Origin: Lacipirellulaceae bacterium
Lineage (GTDB): Bacteria; Planctomycetota; Planctomycetia; Pirellulales; Lacipirellulaceae
Reading direction: 5' to 3'
DNA length: 64,000 nucleotides
Assembly: GCA_040218535.1 (NCBI GenBank)
Contig: JAVJRG010000010.1
Location: 186,001 to 250,000, forward strand
The notes beneath the pieces were generated by a model. It had not been told where the DNA came from and made no database searches. It saw only the letters and a program-made list of their open reading frames with translations. Positions 52,890-63,277 of this stretch are shown here, in pieces; the first letter of the stretch is position 1, and every line of letters starts with the position of its first letter. The position numbers and the translations under genes were made by a program.

Positions 52890-52892
52890 GTG
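52854..52892 (+). promoter_or_regulatory. Paired AGGAG motifs in leader of csrA-REC 1
   Basis: AGGAG at 52854-52858 and again at 52876-52880, the second in Shine-Dalgarno position nine bases from GTG. CsrA dimers bind ANGGA pairs of this spacing in known leaders, so CsrA-type control of its own gene is possible. Binding is inferred. Confidence 0.45.
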
Positions 52893-53702
52893 CTAGTCTT
52901 ATCGCGTCGTCGCAACGACAAAATACTTTTCCCCAATTTGGGGATCACGATCGAGATCCTGAAACTCGATGGCCGTTCTGTCCGTGTTGGAATCAAAGCT
53001 CCCAAGCAGATAGATATCCGGCGGCATGAGCTCGATGATCGTGGTGAAGCTGTTCCCGAAAAGTCGCTTCCTGAGCTCATTGACTTAAGTGCGAAAGAAT
53101 CAGGCTCGGAAATTGACTCGCTGAGCGTCGCTGAACGAGATCGCCAGTTGCGGGAGCGGGTGCATCTCGCAGCACTCTCTTTGACAGAGTTGAACTCTCG
53201 ATTAGAGGTAGACCAGTATCCTGAGCTTGAAGATGCCATGTTCAAGATGTTCTTTGAGCTCAAGGCACTCGACGAAGAAATTGATCGCCGACAGAAATCG
53301 TTGCCACCGGCTGAGGAACCACCGAAGCGAACCGCCCTTTTGGTAGAAGACAACGTTAACGAATGCCGCCTGTTGGCAGGGTACTTGCGTTGTCGCGAGT
53401 TCAATGTATCGGTCGCTCACGAAGGAGAGGCGGCGCTCTCTTATCTCGAAGACAACGAGCAGCCCGATGTGGTCCTCCTGGACATGAATATGCCTGGGGT
53501 CGATGGACCTAGCACCGTTCGAGAGATTCGCCAGCGAAAAGAGCTCGACGGCTTGACGATCCTGGCAGTGAGTGGCGAAGACCCAGCCCACTATGGGGTA
53601 GAAGTCGGCCCCCAAGGGGTCGATGGCTGGTTCCCAAAGCCACTTGACCCCGAGTCGCTCGTATTCCGATTGGCGGTAGGTGCTGAAAAGAAGCCAGCCT
53701 AG
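52890..53702 (+). CDS. CsrA-receiver fusion protein 1 (CsrA-REC)
   Basis: 270 residues. Residues 1-~50 are a full CsrA/RsmA RNA-binding domain (MLVLSRRRNDKILFP..., KAPKQIDIRRHEL), with Arg6, Arg7 and the conserved C-terminal Arg at residue 45 that binds GGA. Residues ~75-140 are a charged two-helix linker. Residues ~148-266 are a CheY-like receiver: Glu153/Asp154, phosphate-accepting Asp198 in VVLLDMNMPG, Ser228 and Lys250. This domain combination is not one I know from the literature. The GTG has TAGGAG upstream. It converges with the Rcp1-like regulator, nine bases apart. I infer an mRNA-binding protein regulated by phosphorylation. Confidence 0.85.
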   Translation: MLVLSRRRNDKILFPNLGITIEILKLDGRSVRVGIKAPKQIDIRRHELDDRGEAVPEKSLPELIDLSAKESGSEIDSLSVAERDRQLRERVHLAALSLTELNSRLEVDQYPELEDAMFKMFFELKALDEEIDRRQKSLPPAEEPPKRTALLVEDNVNECRLLAGYLRCREFNVSVAHEGEAALSYLEDNEQPDVVLLDMNMPGVDGPSTVREIRQRKELDGLTILAVSGEDPAHYGVEVGPQGVDGWFPKPLDPESLVFRLAVGAEKKPA

Positions 53703-53711
53703 TTGAGCTAA

Positions 53712-54173
53712 TCACTTCCTGAAGTCATCATGCTCAGGCGGGAGCTCAACGACGCGCCAGTAGTGATCAAGCATCCCAATGAGATTGACGAAATCTTCAC
53801 CCGCCTTTGACTTGACGATATAACCGGCAACTTGGCTCTCGTAGGCCTGCAGCTTGTCTTGATCGTCATCCGAAGTGGTCAAGACAAAAACTACACTGTC
53901 GCGCAGTTGCTCATCGCGTCGCATCTGCTTCAGGAACTCAATGCCATTCATGCGGGGCATATTGAGGTCGAGCAGGATCAGGTAGGGCCGCTGAAGCGGC
54001 TGCTTGCCATTGGAGCCCTGAAGAAGTTCCAAAGCCTCAAGACCGTCCTGAACGTGCTCTATCGGGTTGGCAATTCGTGCTTTTCGAAACGCTCGACGGA
54101 TAGCCTCAGCATCAATTTCATCATCTTCGACCAAGAGCATCGTGACGGTTTCGCCGATGGAATCAGTCAACAT
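53712..54173 (-). CDS. Single-domain Rcp1-like response regulator
   Basis: 153 residues, only a receiver domain. LLVEDDEIDAEAIRRAF has the acidic pair, LILLDLNMPRMNG the phosphate-accepting Asp, and VLTTSDDDQDKLQAYESQVAGYIVKSKAG the Thr and Lys. This form is characteristic of Rcp1 regulators that pair with phytochrome-type kinases. It starts 370 bases upstream of, and divergent to, the kinase with a phytochrome-like H-box, so the two are probably cognate. There is no output domain. Confidence 0.88.
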   Translation of the reverse strand: MLTDSIGETVTMLLVEDDEIDAEAIRRAFRKARIANPIEHVQDGLEALELLQGSNGKQPLQRPYLILLDLNMPRMNGIEFLKQMRRDEQLRDSVVFVLTTSDDDQDKLQAYESQVAGYIVKSKAGEDFVNLIGMLDHYWRVVELPPEHDDFRK

Positions 54174-54543
54174 TAAGTACTCCGGTGCTAATTGATTTAG
54201 GGTAAGCCGCTCAATCTCGCGGTAGCGTCTGTTGGTTCATTACGCCTTTTGACCAACATTAATCATTATTAGTGGCCAACCACCAACCAAAGCAGGTAAC
54301 TTACAACTATTTGGCAGTCGAGATGGGCCTAAACCCAAGACGGAAAACAGCCAACAAGAATCTTGCTCCAGCTGGACACGATGGATTTGATCTTCGGCCC
54401 GCAGATCTCGAAGTTATTCTCAGCAGTTCTGTAGCCTACTATGTTTCAAACTACCTTGTATCAGCCTATCATATCACAGCTAACTCATTGATGGACTGCC
54501 TTGCCTCCACGGTTACTTTTCCTCTCAGAATTTGCAAGACCAC
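54174..54543. other. Divergent promoter region between Rcp1-like regulator and CheB-CheR kinase 1
   Basis: A/T-rich spacer (AACATTAATCATTATTAGTG and others). A short open frame overlapping the kinase start has no protein character. It is the likely promoter region for both genes; no motif is strong enough to call. Confidence 0.5.
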
Positions 54544-57500
54544 ATGTCCGAAGAATCCGAAACTAATGAAGAAGTGCTCGCTGCTGAAGAGAATGAGGCT
54601 GTTGAGCGTAATTCGCCGACAGGTGATTCGGCTGGGATTCAATTCCCCATCGTTGGGATTGGTGCCTCAGCTGGTGGCTTAGAGGCAATCGAGCGATTCT
54701 TTGACAATACGCCGCCTGATACTGGGATGGCATTCATCATCGTTCAACATTTGTCGCCTGACTTTAAGAGCCTGATGGACGAGCTCCTAGCGCGACATAC
54801 GGAGATGCCCATTCACAAGGTCGAAAACGGGATGGCCATTGAGCCCAATGGCATCTACTTGATTCCGCCCAAGAAAAACATGGTCCTCTCGGACGGCAAG
54901 CTGTTGCTAACCGACCAAGATGCTTCGGGCGGGCTAAATCTTCCCATTGATATCCTGTTCCGCTCGATGGCACGTGATGCGGGCAAGCGTTGCATTGCTG
55001 TTGTCCTATCTGGCACAGGAAGCGATGGCTCGCGCGGATTAGATGACATTCATCACGCAGGCGGTTTGGTCGTTGTTCAAGACGCCGATTCGGCAGCCTT
55101 CGACGGCATGCCTCGCAACGCGATCGCTACGGGACTCGTTGATGTCGTTGCTAGGGCTGAGCGCATACCGGAACGCATCATGCAGTATGCGGCTGCGCCC
55201 GAGGAGTTTATTCGTGGTGAAGCAGGACATGAGGAACTTGAGCAAGAAGACGAGATGGCAAGCCTATTTCGCATCTTCCGAAACAGGTTTGGCTTAGACT
55301 TCCGCACCTACAAGCCGACAACCATTAATCGTCGTCTTGAGCGCCGCATGACCATGAGCGACTGCAGTAGTTTGCGTGCATACGTTGACCTGCTGGAATC
55401 GGACGTTGATGAGCTTGAGGCGCTCTATCGTGATCTTTTGGTTGAGGTGACTCACTTCTTTCGAGACCCTGAGGCTTACGGCGTTATCGAAAAGGAAGTA
55501 CTTCCCAAGATCATCGAGAACACTCCCGAAGGAGGGCAAATCCGAGTATGGGCTCCTGGGTGTGCTACGGGCGAGGAAGCCTATTCTATTGCGATGCTCC
55601 TGCATGAACAAATTGGAGCGAATGAACGCAATCTCAATGTTAAAGTATTTGCCACTGACGTTCACGCCCGCTCGCTTGAGACGGCTAGCCTCGGAACCTA
55701 TTCCGCCGACTCAGTTTCTCGGCTGAAGCCTGAACGAAAAGACCGCTACTTTACTCAGCACGGATCCCTTTTTCATGTCTCTCAAGAGTTGAGAAAGATG
55801 GTGATCTTTGCTCCTCACGACATCACAAAAGATCCCCCTTTCACGAAACTCGATTTGCTGGTGTGCCGTAATGTGCTTATTTACCTTGAGCAACCGATCC
55901 AGCAGAAGATCGTGGCGATGTATCACTTTGGGCTCAAGGTAAACGGTTACTTATGGCTGGGTCCTAGTGAAACCGTGCGGCCATTCGAGAGAGAGTTCGA
56001 CACACTTGATCAGCATTGGAAGGTGTTCCGAAAGCTTCGGGACATTCGACTCCGCGACACGGTTGGAATGTCCATGATGCCGCCGCTGAGCATGCCTGTG
56101 CGCGCTCATATATCCCCACTAGCGGCACCAGCCCCCGGTAAAGATTGGGCGGTTCCCAAGGCTTTTGAGTCATTGTTGGCGAAGTATGTTCCCCCCAGTT
56201 TGCTTGTCAATGAGCATTTTGAGTTAGAGCACACTTTTGGCGAGGCAAGAAAGTACCTCACTCAGCCAGCTGGTCGCCCTTCCTTAGAAGTCCTCAAGAT
56301 GATGGACGGCGACCTGCGCATGGCCCTCAGTGCCGCGCTCCACCGAGCAGCTCGCCAGAATTCCATCGTCGTTTATCGAGGGGTTAAGGCCCAAGTTGGT
56401 GACCAGGAAGAATTGGTCAAGCTAACTATTGAGCCTCATAGCCCTGGCAACAAAAAATACTACCTAATTGGCATCGAAGAGCTTGATACACCCAAGCGTT
56501 CGCCCGAAGAGCAAGACGCCTACGAGCAAGATTTCGATCCCCATGGTGAATCGGCTGAACGGATCACCGACCTTGAGCGAGAGCTGAATTTCACCAAAGA
56601 GTCGCTACAAAGCACCGTTGAAGAACTAGAAACCAGCAACGAAGAACTCCAAGCGACCAACGAGGAACTCGTCGCTTCGAATGAGGAACTGCAAAGTACC
56701 AATGAAGAACTGCACTCGGTGAACGAAGAGCTTTACACGGTCAATGCCGAACACCAGCGGAAGATCAGCGAGCTGACGGAAGTCACTTCTGACATGGACA
56801 ATCTGCTGCAAGGCACGCAGATAGGAACGATCTTCCTCGACCGCGAATTGAAGATTCGCAAGTTCACGCCCTCAATTGCTTCGGCGTTTCATGTGCTTGA
56901 CCAAGACGTTGGCCGCCCGATCGAGCACATCGCTTACAACCTCGATAATCCTGAGTTGCTGCAGGATATCGAAACGGTAATCCAGGGAACCGAAATCGTT
57001 GAGCGGAAAGTCAAGAGTAGGAATGGCCGCCCTTTCTTTCAACGGATAACCCCCTACCTGCTTCCTGATGGTGAGATCGGAGGCGTCATTCTGACGTTCA
57101 CTGATGTCACTGCCATCGAAGAAGCAAGCCGCGAGGCGGAACGACGAGCCGAAGACTTGGAGCGGTCGAACCTTGAACTTATCGAATTCGCCTATGCCGT
57201 CTCACACGATCTCCAGTCGCCGTTACGGCACATTAACGATCACGGTCGTATACTGGCAGAGGAAGCGAAGGAATCGCTGAACGATCAGGCACGAAGATCC
57301 TTGAGCGTCATGACCAAAGGGGCGACTCAACTGAGTAGCATGATTGACGCATTGCTTGCTTATTCAAGAATTCATACGCGAGGGGAACCACCTGAGCTCG
57401 TCGATTGCCATGAATTGCTTGACGAGGTCAAAACACAGCTCAAAGACCAAATCGAATACGATGGAGCGACGATCACCCACGACACGCTCCCCAAGGTCTA

Positions 57501-57894
57501 CGCAGACCGCAATCAACTGAAAACGGTATTTACTCATTTGATCGATAATGCGATGCGTTATCGTCGCGATGAGGATCCCAAGATCCATATCGAAGTCCGT
57601 CGCCACGAGGATGAGTGGCAGTTCTCCTTTGAGGACAATGGCATGGGCATGGAGCCACGCTGCTTCGACCGCATCTTTGTGATCTTCCAACGTCTGTACC
57701 GCGACGAGGAAATTCCCGGCGAAGGCGTTGGCCTAGCGCTCTGCAAGCGAATTGTCGAACGGCATGGCGGACGAATCTGGCTGACCTCACGACCGGGACG
57801 CGGATCAACTTTTTACTTCACACTCGCTAGCGAAGAGGTTGGCCAGCCGGTCCAAAACAGACTCACACTCCCTTCTCGAAAAACGCCTCGCTGA
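54544..57894 (+). CDS. CheB-CheR-PAS-histidine kinase 1
   Basis: 1116 residues, no membrane segments. CheB methylesterase (~33-215): Ser42 in GIGASAGG, His69 in VQHLSPD, Asp161 in [10 protein letters not shown]; no receiver precedes it. CheR methyltransferase (~235-495): [14 protein letters not shown] motif [29 protein letters not shown]-like region (~540-640), then a NEEL-rich coiled coil (~675-745) with seven-residue repeats, then PAS (~750-860). The kinase has a phytochrome-like H-box (His888 in [13 protein letters not shown]), N-box Asn1002, DNGMG at 1031-1035 and [10 protein letters not shown]. CheB and CheR side by side are usually for receptor methylation; here the target may be another protein. 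Start at ATG 54544, a TTG four codons upstream less likely. Confidence 0.88.
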
Positions 57895-58003
57895 CTGATG
57901 TCTTGAGGCGAATGTGACTTTTTCAAGTCTTACTGCTTTCATTCACCCTACTTGCGAACCGATCTCTTTCCATTGATTGACGTCAACTTGGCAGGATACA
58001 AGC

Positions 58004-61000
58004 ATGTCTAATGATGCATCTTCTACTCACGAATCAGACGAAACCTCTGCTCCTATATCTGGCAGAGACGCTCTCTTCATTTCTGGGATCGGTGCGTCTG
58101 CCGGCGGGCTCGAAGCTTTGGAGCAATTCTTCCGCAGTACGCAGTCAGAATCGGGCATGGCGTACGTCGTGGTTCAGCACCTCTCGCCTGACTTCGACAG
58201 CCTGATGGATAAACTTCTGGCACGGGAGACAAACCTGCCAATCAAGTTGATCGAAGATGGCATGTTGGTCGAAGCGGACACAGTCTACCTGTTACCACCA
58301 GGCAAAGAAGTAATTATTTCCGACGGGCGACTACTCTTGGCCTCGCGGGCTCGTGGGAAGGACTTGTCCTACCCGATCGACAGTTTTTTCCGTTCACTAG
58401 CTCAAGACCTTGGGCCTCGCGCAATTGCTGTTGTCCTCTCGGGAACCGGTTCAGATGGCTCAAGGGGTATCCGTGACATTCATTCTGCCGGCGGACTGGT
58501 AATTGCGCAGACAGAGTCGTCCGCCAAGTTTGATGGCATGCCCCGAGCGGCAGTCGATACCGGCATTGTCGACATGCTACTGGATGCTAGTGATATCCCT
58601 GACGCTTTGGTTCGTTATCTTTCCAACCCCTTGATGAAGAAGAAAACAGCAGGAACGAAGACCCTGCAGACAATGGAAGGGCCCATCTACCGGATCCTCT
58701 CGCTGCTAAAGAAGCGTTACAAGATTGACTTCACCGAGTACAAAACAACAACCATCAGCCGCCGCATTGAGCGACGAATTATGCTTAGCGGCTCCGTCGA
58801 TCTTGATCGGTATGCGGAGCGTCTGCGTGAAGACCCCGCTGAGCTCGACTCGCTCTACAAAGACTTGCTTATCGGAGTGACTGGCTTCTTCCGTGACCGC
58901 AATGTGTTCGATTACCTAGAGTCCGACGCGATTCCTGAATTGATCGCCAAGCTCGAACCCAATCAAGAATTCCGAGCCTGGGTCGTTGGCACAGCCACTG
59001 GTGAGGAGGCTTTCTCACTGGCGATTCTCATTCACGAAGCGATTGAAAAGATGGAGTGGCCTGGCACCTTCAAGATTTTCGCTTCGGATGTCCACCCTGA
59101 GTCCCTCGAGTTTGCCAGTCACGGTATTTATCCACCGGAAAGTGTTTCCGGACTAACGCCAGCCAGGCTTGAACGCTATTTCACGGAAACGAATGGAGAA
59201 TACCATGTGCTTCCGGAGCTGCGTCGCACAGTGGTTTTCGTGCCGCACAATGTCATTCGCGACGCTCCGTTTACCAATCTCGACTTGGTTACCTGTCGCA
59301 ACGTCTTTATTTACTTCACACCCGCGACGCAGAAAAAGGTTCTCTCGCTCTTTCACTTCGGCCTAAAGACCGGAGGGATTATGTGTCTCGGCTCAAGCGA
59401 AACGCCAGGGGAATTAGCGGACGAATTTGAGCCGATGAGCGAGTCGCTGCGTGTCTATCGCAAGCATCGCGACACCCAACTACCTGCCAGTATGCGCATG
59501 CCGGTCGCACCGCTAACTCCTACGACGACTCGGACCCAAAAGCGAGAGATAGGGGCACTCTCTTCGGTCGTCCCCGCACGAGACCTACTTGCCACCTACG
59601 ATTACTTACTCGACGAGTTCATGCCTGCTTGCTTCCTCGTAAGCGAAACAGGGGAACTACTTCATACTTTCGGAGATTCCAACGAGTACCTGCGGCATCG
59701 TCGTGGTCGGCCTTCGATTGACATTCTGGAACTCATTGACCCAGGGCTACGCAATACGCTATCCGCTGCTCTCCGTCGCTGCGCTAAGAATGGCACGGCA
59801 GTAAGTTATTCAGGCGTTCACCTGGAAGGGAGTGACAATAAGGAGTCGTTGCGACTCTCAGTCCGTCCCTTGCGCGAATCGACGCAGTTGATGATCGTTT
59901 CGATTGAACCTACACAAGCAATCGAAAGATCCATCGAGTACGAAACGTTAGAGCTTTCGGCGAGCGAGCTCTCGAGCCGTGAATTCGATGCCCTAGAACG
60001 GGAACTGCAGGAAACCAAAGCCAGCCTTCAGTCAACGATCGAAGAGTCGCAGACGACCAATGAAGAACTCCAAGCCGCCAATGAGCAGCTCACCGCGTCG
60101 AACGAAGAACTGCAAAGCACCAACGAAGAACTGCATTCGGTCAACGAGGAACTATATACCGTAAACGCCGAGTACCAGCGGAAGATCGACGAGCTAACTG
60201 AGCTCACCGACGATATGGACAATTTGCTCAATAGCACGAATGTTCACACGATCTTTCTCGACGCAGAACTATGTATTCGACGATTTACCCCCGGCATTCG
60301 CGAAACTTTTAACCTGATTGCTCAAGATATCGGTCGAAGATTCGACTCTTTTACCTACAACATTGACTACGAAGAGCTTCCCACCGATGTGAAACGCGTG
60401 TTGGCGGACCGCACCCCCTGCGAGCGTGAAGTCCAGGACCGATCTGGTAGTTGGTTTCTTCTGCGCGTCTTGCCCTATCTCTCTCAGGGCAAAACGGATG
60501 GCGCCGTCATTACCTTGGTCGACATCACTTCGCTGAAACAAGCCGAAGCAACTCTTGCTGAGCTTTCGGAAATCGTTGAACACTCCCAAGATGCTGTCTT
60601 CCGCTGCGATCTGGATGGCACGATTCGAACTTGGAATCGAGGAGCTGAAAACCTTTTTGGCTACTCTGCAAAAGAAATCATAGGACAGCATGTCAAGTTG
60701 CTAAATCTAACGGAATCAGATCGCGACCTTGATGTGACCCTCTCCCAGATCGCTGAAGGTAGAACGATTGATCGACTTCAGTCGACCCCCCAGCGCCGCG
60801 ACGATTCAATCTTCCATGTCGCCCTCACATGGTCGCCGATTAGTGACGAAAACGACCGAGTCGTAGGAGCCTCAGCCATCGCTCGAGATATGACCAGCGA
60901 AAAACGGGCCGAGGCGGAAGTTCGCGAAGCGATCAAGCGGCGCGATCAGTTTATGGCAATGCTCTCACATGAACTTCGCAACCCGTTGGCTGCCGTTCTC

Positions 61001-62044
61001 AACGCGACCACCCTACTCAATGAGAACCAGCTTGATGAAGAAACTGACGCAGAAGCCCGTAATGTAATCGAACACAATGTTCGTCATGTCGCCCGGATGC
61101 TTGATGACTTATTGGACGTGGCCCGTATTACTAACGACAAAATCAATCTGCATAAGGAAGTTGTCGATCTCAATTCGCTGCTAGTCGATGCCGTAGAATG
61201 CGTGCAGCATCGCATTGATGAGAAGCAGCAGGAACTGCACCTTAGTTCTCCTGAGACTCCGATCTATGTCGAAGGTGACGTCGGACGGTTGCAGCAATCC
61301 CAAGTCAACCTATTGGTGAATGCTTCAAAGTACACGCCCGAAGGAGGTAAGATTCATTACTCTTTGGGTCAACAAGACGGCTTCGCGGTACTACGTGTGA
61401 AAGATAACGGTGACGGAATTCCTCCCGACCTCATTGACCGCATCTTTGAGCCTTTCCTTCAATCGGATGAAACCTTGGACCGATCCCAAGGGGGCATGGG
61501 TCTTGGGCTAACCGTGGTGCAGAAAGTCATGGAAGGACATGGCGGAATCGTCGAAGCACTGAGCGACGGCACCTCCCAAGGGAGCGAGTTCGTCTGCAGA
61601 ATCCCACTCACTGAGAAACGTCCTCGACGCGTGGTCGAACTGCCAGAGACAATCGTCGAAGGAACAAAACTTCTAGTCGTCGAGGACAATGATGGCGTTC
61701 GACGCATGTTGCTTCGGGCTATGAAACTCAAGGGATTTGAAGTTCAAGCGGCATCAGGGGGCGAAGAAGCACTCGAACTTCTGGAAGAGTACACTCCCGA
61801 AGTCGCGGTCATCGATATCGGACTTCCAGATATTGACGGCTACGAACTGGCTCGTCGAATCCGGTACGAAGCACGGTTTCGTGGACTCATGCTTGTCGCG
61901 CTTACCGGATACGGACGTGAACGTGACAAGCGTCGCGCAGAGGAAGCTGGATTCGATTTGCATCTTGTGAAGCCTCTTGATCCCAACGAACTTGTCCGAG
62001 CAATCTGTGCTGCCAATACACCCCAGCCCCTAGCAGGCACCTAA
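58004..62044 (+). CDS. CheB-CheR-PAS-hybrid histidine kinase 2
   Basis: 1346 residues, soluble. CheB (~20-205) with Ser32, His59, Asp151; CheR (~225-490) with [23 protein letters not shown] and [11 protein letters not shown]; a PAS-like region (~530-640); a NEEL-type coiled coil (~665-735); PAS (~740-845) and a second PAS (~850-965). The kinase core has the H-box [15 protein letters not shown] (His989), Asn1106 and DNGDG. It ends in a receiver (~1220-1340; Glu1227/Asp1228, Asp1271 in AVIDIGLPD, Lys1323). It is a tandem paralogue of kinase 1, 109 bases apart. An ATG with GCAGGATAC seven bases upstream is chosen. Phosphate from this hybrid would need an Hpt step. Confidence 0.88.
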
Positions 62045-62446: not shown

Positions 62447-62449
62447 ATG
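62401..62449 (+). promoter_or_regulatory. Paired AGGAG motifs in leader of csrA-REC 2
   Basis: AGGAG at 62401-62405 and AAGGAGGG at 62431-62438, the second nine bases before ATG. This doubled motif mirrors the leader of csrA-REC 1. It suggests CsrA-type autoregulation; inferred only. Confidence 0.45.
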
Positions 62450-63277
62450 CTGGTCCTGTCACGACGCTCGAAAGAGAAGCTGTCATTCCCCGAGTTGGGA
62501 ATTACCGTCCATTTTCTACGAATCCAGTCAGGTGCCGTCAAAGTGGGGGTCGACGCTCCACCTTCCATTAAGATTGTCCGCGATGAAATTGCCGGTTCCG
62601 GGAAGCAGGCTGAGGAAACTCGCCGACAACTCCTACGACTGCCCCGTGAGGTTCGCCACGATATCCGCAACGAACTTCACTCGATCAGCATTGGCTTGCA
62701 TCTCTACCAAGAGCAGATGCGTGTCGGCGACGCCAAGGATGCTCAGGAAACCTTCGATGAGATCATGGCGGCGGTGCGTCGGCTTGATGAGAATGACGTA
62801 TTGCAGCGCAAGCCTGAATCAAAAAAACCGATTTATCCTCGACTGAGCCAATTACCTGACGGCGAGGAATCCTCCTCCAACGATCGGAGCGTGGACAAGT
62901 CAGCGAATCCCCGCATCCTGCTGGCCGAAGACGATGAGAATGAGCGAGAAATGCTAGCCGGATTCCTGCGGCTTGGTGGACTTGATGTCGACACCGTTGG
63001 TGATGGCGAACAAGCCGTCAACTACCTCAGCCAGAATCAACGTCCTGGACTTCTACTACTGGACATGAAAATGCCACTCTGCGATGGACCAGAAGTAGTA
63101 CGCTTTGTCAGGTCTCACGAGCAGCATCGCGATCTAACCATCTTCGGCGTCAGTGGCTCAACGCCCGAAGAAAATAATGTTGCGGTCGGGTCGCAGGGCG
63201 TTGATCGCTGGATCAGCAAGCCTCTCGACCCGCCAGGCCTGCTCAAGGCCGTACAAGAAACTGTGGTTAGCTGCTAG
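62447..63277 (+). CDS. CsrA-receiver fusion protein 2 with H-box-like linker
   Basis: 276 residues. The CsrA domain (1-~50; MLVLSRRSKEKLSFPELG, then DAPPSIKIVRDEIAG) keeps Arg6, Arg7 and the conserved Arg at 45. The linker (~55-120) has two helices; the first contains HDIRNELHSI (His71), which looks like the H-box of histidine kinases (HELRNPL). There is no ATP-binding domain. The receiver (~154-272) has Glu161/Asp162, Asp206 in LLLLDMKMPL, Ser236 and Lys258. It lies downstream of kinase 2 on the same strand, 403 bases away. Possible phosphorelay: hybrid kinase receiver, linker His, own receiver. This is inference. Confidence 0.85.
   Translation: MLVLSRRSKEKLSFPELGITVHFLRIQSGAVKVGVDAPPSIKIVRDEIAGSGKQAEETRRQLLRLPREVRHDIRNELHSISIGLHLYQEQMRVGDAKDAQETFDEIMAAVRRLDENDVLQRKPESKKPIYPRLSQLPDGEESSSNDRSVDKSANPRILLAEDDENEREMLAGFLRLGGLDVDTVGDGEQAVNYLSQNQRPGLLLLDMKMPLCDGPEVVRFVRSHEQHRDLTIFGVSGSTPEENNVAVGSQGVDRWISKPLDPPGLLKAVQETVVSC

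Follow-up and report, generated by a model that had tools for sequence, protein, structure and literature searches.

The window analysed here, a stretch of 64,000 nt from contig JAVJRG010000010.1 of a Lacipirellulaceae bacterium in whose numbering all coordinates are given, contains an open reading frame at positions 52890-53702 of the forward strand that begins with a GTG codon, has an AGGAG sequence 10-13 nt upstream and is predicted to encode a protein of 270 residues, with a CsrA domain at its N-terminus and a response-regulator receiver (REC) at its C-terminus. The initial annotation of this DNA had recognized these two domains and their key residues and had treated the protein as a single oddity. 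The domains and residues hold, but that description omitted a middle region of ~95 residues, a helical hairpin, that separates the CsrA domain from the receiver, as well as a second copy of the gene 9 kb away and the kinase genes that lie between the two copies. The protein is in fact one of two diverged types of fusion (a and b) that belong to a conserved kinase locus, whose features in the window are as follows.

52890..53702, + strand: CsrA-hairpin-REC protein, 270 aa, type a, without the H-box His (the target of this study)
52890..53042, + strand: CsrA domain, residues 1-51, with Leu4, Arg6 and Arg45 (equivalent to E. coli Arg44); from Pfam, alignment to solved CsrA and conservation
53127..53300, + strand: helical hairpin, putatively derived from a DHp-like linker, H-box His absent, residues 80-137; from AlphaFold2 helices and hhalign (probability 96.6)
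53328..53690, + strand: receiver domain, residues 147-267, with Asp154, Asp198, Ser228 and Lys250
53712..54173, - strand: stand-alone receiver protein, 153 aa; from Pfam, also found beside type a in genomes G102, G123 and G200
54532..57894, + strand: CheB-CheR-PAS-HisKA-HATPase sensor kinase, non-hybrid, no C-terminal receiver; from Pfam, conserved beside type-a fusions
57977..62044, + strand: CheB-CheR-PAS-PAS-HisKA-HATPase-REC hybrid sensor kinase; from Pfam, conserved beside type-b fusions
62447..63277, + strand: second CsrA-DHp-REC protein, 276 aa, type b, H-box HDIRNELH
62645..62791, + strand: DHp-like hairpin of the type-b protein, residues 67-115, with His71 at 62657-62659

Both end domains of the target score above their Pfam cut-offs, CsrA (PF02599) at residues 2-50 (E 1e-11, 45 bits versus a cut-off of 27, profile positions 2-49 of 53) and Response_reg at residues 150-259 (E 5.1e-19), and the same architecture recurs in 130 homologous fusions, so that the conserved-domain search bears out the fusion first proposed from the sequence. 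Since these homologues come from many assemblies, a chance open reading frame or an artificial joining of two genes can be ruled out. The target scores below the cut-offs of the NCBIfam csrA equivalogs and is thus not an orthologue of stand-alone CsrA. Its residues 1-54 match solved CsrA and RsmE chains in phmmer searches (E 2e-6) with none of the strands missing, which agrees with the intact CsrA core described initially. An insertion of one residue in the beta2-beta3 region (FPNLG in the target, FPxLG in general form) makes Arg45, with which E. coli Arg44 aligns, the equivalent of that residue.

Residue conservation was examined in the 130 full-length fusions. Leu2, Gly34 and Ala37 are each present in 129 of them and Pro38 in 127, and residue 7 is variable (R 82, K 20, G 14, H 5, S 4), so that of the three arginines that the initial annotation had taken as marks of the core, Arg6 and Arg45 are family constants but Arg7 is not. 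This variability would fit the idea that the CsrA domain binds no RNA and is a mere dimerisation module, the receiver protein acting through protein contacts while the seven other CsrA genes of the same genome do the RNA work. We consider that idea improbable: the RNA-contact residues Leu4, Arg6 and Arg45, all present in the target, are conserved in 109, 129 and 128 of the 130 fusions, even where the receiver has decayed, and a review gives Leu4 and Arg44 an especially critical part in RNA binding by CsrA (PMC7652899). In its whole CsrA fold region and in these three residues the target resembles the CsrA/RsmA family (E. coli CsrA, P. fluorescens RsmE), which provided the best matches among solved structures. 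The known members of that family, which bind GGA RNA as strand-swapped homodimers, are stand-alone proteins of ~60-75 residues that are controlled by sRNAs, FliW or CesT, whereas the domain described here contains the FPxLG insertion and heads a protein of 270 residues in which it is followed by a hairpin of putative DHp origin and by a receiver.

The receiver of the target has a complete active site (E153, D154, D198, S228 and K250), with Asp198, Ser228 and Lys250 just where they had been placed initially, and Foldseek assigns it a CheY-like fold. Among the 130 fusions, Asp154 is kept in 126, Asp198 in 128, a Ser or Thr at position 228 in 126 and Lys250 in 124. By features that can be tested in its sequence, the target belongs both to the CsrA domain family and to the response regulators, as a variant of each.

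Across the 130 fusions, ~60-100 residues separate the CsrA domain from the receiver. AlphaFold2 monomer models fold this region into a hairpin in both proteins of the window, with helices at residues 80-106 and 111-137 of the target (mean pLDDT 83) and at residues 67-93 and 96-115 of the type-b protein (62447-63277); in a structure search the best 50 matches were mostly to receivers, with nothing on the hairpin or the CsrA part. Most members of the family carry the motif H-x-x-R-N-x-L-N on the first helix and some retain the His without the RN. As scored by alignment column (with manual corrections for L210_10488 and L088), the H-box His is retained in at least 111 of the 130 fusions, and His71 of the type-b protein is invariant in alignment A4. 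The acidic residue that follows the H-box His in true kinases is, by contrast, not conserved in the fusions. Pfam places HisKA matches at the H-box of several members (E 0.005-0.035, below the cut-off), among them residues 68-114 of the type-b protein (E 0.0053, also sub-threshold). When the H-box linkers were compared by hhalign with the HisKA segments of kinases from the same loci, the two aligned at the H-box with a score of 39.7 (probability 91.7), versus a best score of 17.1 among 40 column-shuffled profiles, which rules out a featureless linker for the members with an H-box. The linker of the target matches the H-box linkers (probability 96.6) and has no direct match to HisKA; the phospho-acceptor-type His is missing from it, with RQLRERVHLAAL where relatives have HDLRNQLNTAHL. 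These profile comparisons suggest that the middle region is a helical hairpin akin to the DHp of histidine kinases, whose His has been kept in most members and lost in the clade of the target. It resembles Spo0B/HPt proteins and HisKA DHp domains in that the type-b linker can be matched to HisKA segments at the H-box and no ATPase domain is attached, and differs from them in that the similarity is weak and below Pfam thresholds, in its location between CsrA and REC, and in the loss of the His from the target's clade. The hairpin is absent altogether from two shorter fusions of 186-190 residues (L074:14348-14920 and L075:5752-6312), in which CsrA leads directly into the receiver.

A maximum-likelihood tree of 56 fusions places the target among eight His-less proteins that form one clade (support 100/98) and the type-b copy of the window in a separate, almost wholly His-bearing clade of ten (support 100/99); a quick tree was used for the set of 130. 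The two types flank a conserved locus in the order type a, CheB-CheR-PAS-HK, often a kinase-less CheB-CheR-PAS protein, CheB-CheR-PAS-HK-REC and type b, which is found in the window and in G102, G123, G200 and G219, in part in G039 and rearranged in G153 and G170. Many single-copy fusions adjoin a hybrid kinase, either of the CheB-CheR type or a PAS-HK-REC protein of 500-550 residues. The kinases at 54532-57894 and 57977-62044 recur across genera; they bear CheB and CheR domains and seem to act on an RNA-binding output. A third fusion of 261 residues lies elsewhere in the same genome, on another contig (L011:8676-9461); identity to the target is 37% for the second copy and 42% for the third. 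A histidine kinase gene occurs within 1.5 kb of 93 of the 130 fusions, where a few per cent would be expected by chance (given the 29 kinase-type ATPases in the 5.36 Mb of the target's own genome), and the third copy, along with about a quarter of the family, has no kinase within that distance. From the conservation of the receiver active site in 130 proteins and the proximity of kinase genes we infer, with good support, that the CsrA domain is under the control of phosphorylation, and to this extent the same suggestion in the initial annotation is upheld.

The presence of the H-box His covaries with the type of neighbouring kinase. For His-bearing fusions, the nearest kinase was a hybrid in 75 of 76 cases at a gap of ≤700 bp and in 78 of 84 at 1.5 kb; for His-less fusions, it was non-hybrid in 4 of 5 and 8 of 9 cases, respectively (Fisher p 1.5e-5 at 700 bp and 2.5e-7 at 1.5 kb, values that ignore relatedness). 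In the first set of genomes, from the order, a hybrid kinase was nearest to 31 of 32 His-bearing fusions and 1 of 9 His-less fusions within 1.5 kb, a non-hybrid one being nearest to the other 8. The hybrid pairing of His-bearing members was repeated in a second set (74 fusions, from 75 new loci found in the class search), and the final scoring pooled the two. Among the cases that depart from this pattern are a decayed copy (L085), two loci in which the hybrid kinase is second-nearest (L080 and L233) and one in which the fusion gene and the ORF of the kinase overlap and no receiver was found in frame (L209). Few independent events underlie the covariation, since the His-less, non-hybrid pairings come mostly from one clade, type a. 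In addition, the receiver is complete in all 111 His-bearing fusions, and its catalytic residues have been lost in 7 of the 19 His-less ones (p 5e-7).

These observations bear on two other readings of the protein. The hairpin might be a DHp-descended element for dimerisation and signal transmission in a phospho-regulated CsrA, with a His that carries no phosphate or serves as a phosphatase site. Such a role would suit the facts that DHp domains are dimerisation hairpins, that type a and the two short fusions keep both end domains without the His or the entire hairpin, and that an Asn is conserved (111 of 130) at +4 from the His, which in HisKA proteins is a site associated with the phosphatase function. 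We nevertheless regard it as unlikely, in that the His has been kept while neighbouring H-box positions drift, and in that it tracks hybrid kinases and intact receivers, for which a plain spacer does not account. The receiver might, alternatively, be constitutive or structural and the protein an ordinary CsrA with a tail, free of phosphorylation control. The losses among the His-less members suggest that some copies are phosphorylation-independent or decaying, but the receiver is intact in the target and complete in 123 of the 130 fusions, and the strong linkage of the fusions to kinase genes also makes this explanation highly improbable. In L084, L086, L087, L088, L251 and L252 the catalytic residues of the receiver are damaged and the H-box His is lost (in L086, H to Q beside a non-hybrid kinase), and Arg6 and Arg45 are kept; these are possibly phosphorylation-independent CsrA proteins.

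We favour, with a probability of roughly 0.65, the reading that the fusions are CsrA-output response regulators fed by adjacent kinases, with type b served by a His-Asp-His-Asp phosphorelay and type a phosphorylated directly on Asp198. The CheB-CheR-PAS-HisKA-HATPase sensor kinases would control phosphorylation of the receiver, which would act via the hairpin, itself expected to dimerise, to alter the binding of mRNA by the CsrA dimer; altered geometry or stability of that dimer, brought about through the hairpin, is a reasonable guess for the effect on RNA binding. Hybrid kinases have a receiver as their last domain and, as a rule, depend on a His phosphotransfer domain for onward transfer of the phosphate. 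In type b, the DHp His would accept the phosphate from the hybrid kinase's receiver and hand it to the receiver Asp of the same protein. In type a, where the His is lost, the partner kinase is non-hybrid and the His would thus not be needed; phosphorylation would most likely occur directly on Asp198. Against a direct pairing in type a stands the gene for the stand-alone receiver (53712-54173), which lies between the type-a gene and the kinase in the window, is convergent with the target and has a counterpart near the fusion in G004; its product could be the true partner of one of the kinases. What we observe is the architecture, conservation and locus of the fusions and the way in which the His goes together with hybrid kinases and with intact receivers; RNA binding, dimerisation and the route of phosphotransfer are predictions. 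More tentatively, and at slightly less than even odds, the locus might work as two branches, in which the hybrid kinase signals to CsrA-DHp-REC by a full His-Asp-His-Asp relay with the phosphotransfer domain inside the CsrA protein, its non-hybrid sister signals directly to CsrA-REC, and both CsrA proteins, possibly as mixed dimers, integrate the inputs on mRNA without an sRNA or FliW.

A profile built from the three copies of the target's own genome detected the fusion in 44 of the 247 genomes searched from the order, and a wider profile did so in 104 of 398 sampled from the class of the window (Planctomycetia-like); in a sample of the phylum it was found in 17 of 392 genomes, all within that class. 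Among its carriers are two Planctomycetota MAGs (L097 and the genome of L098). There was no fusion in 26 genomes from other phyla, nor, among the best 10-13 candidates scored per genome, in 195 genomes grouped around one from Verrucomicrobia or 249 grouped around a gammaproteobacterial one, and its absence outside the phylum is thus provisional, for ~470 sampled genomes. A search of plasmids returned no true fusion among the matches listed. The genome of the target has ten CsrA domains, of which three head long proteins, and 60 relatives have from 3 to 14 CsrA genes each. In several relatives, CsrA domains lie within longer open frames, as for example one of 387 residues (G037:C31:37681). A receiver protein with a related C-terminal half and no CsrA domain (L089:9552-10403) may represent an outgroup or a form that has lost CsrA.

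A description of the fusion was not found in our searches of the open-access literature on CsrA, the coverage of which is incomplete, and this agrees with the initial annotation, which knew of no described family; domain databases may list the architecture and we claim no priority for it. The censuses that we consulted do not mention CsrA. E. coli CsrA has no receiver. It is listed as an 'orphan RR' in a 2025 review (PMC12471899). The fusions share with the ANTAR response regulators (AmiR, EutV, PdtaR) a two-component output that is predicted to act on RNA instead of DNA, but ANTAR is a C-terminal three-helix antitermination domain, for which the target has no match in Pfam, whereas the output domain here is the N-terminal, beta-rich CsrA. 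With the BarA-UvrY-CsrB/C-CsrA system (GacS-GacA-Rsm) they share the predicted coupling of a hybrid sensor kinase to CsrA activity. There, however, the regulator transcribes sRNAs that sequester CsrA, while here the receiver and CsrA form one polypeptide, which would shorten such a route to a single protein.

To our knowledge, CsrA has so far been seen to be controlled by titrating RNAs or antagonist proteins. If our reading is true, this widespread family would place CsrA directly under the control of phosphorylation and give two-component systems, besides ANTAR, a second class of RNA-binding output. The paired types amount to a natural experiment, in which a single locus holds a fusion with and a fusion without the relay histidine. 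The presence of CsrA in response regulators beside sensor kinases, in about a quarter of the sampled genomes of the class, predicts phosphorylation-switched control of mRNAs in these bacteria, which would help to explain the many CsrA genes of planctomycetes and makes their expansion testable.
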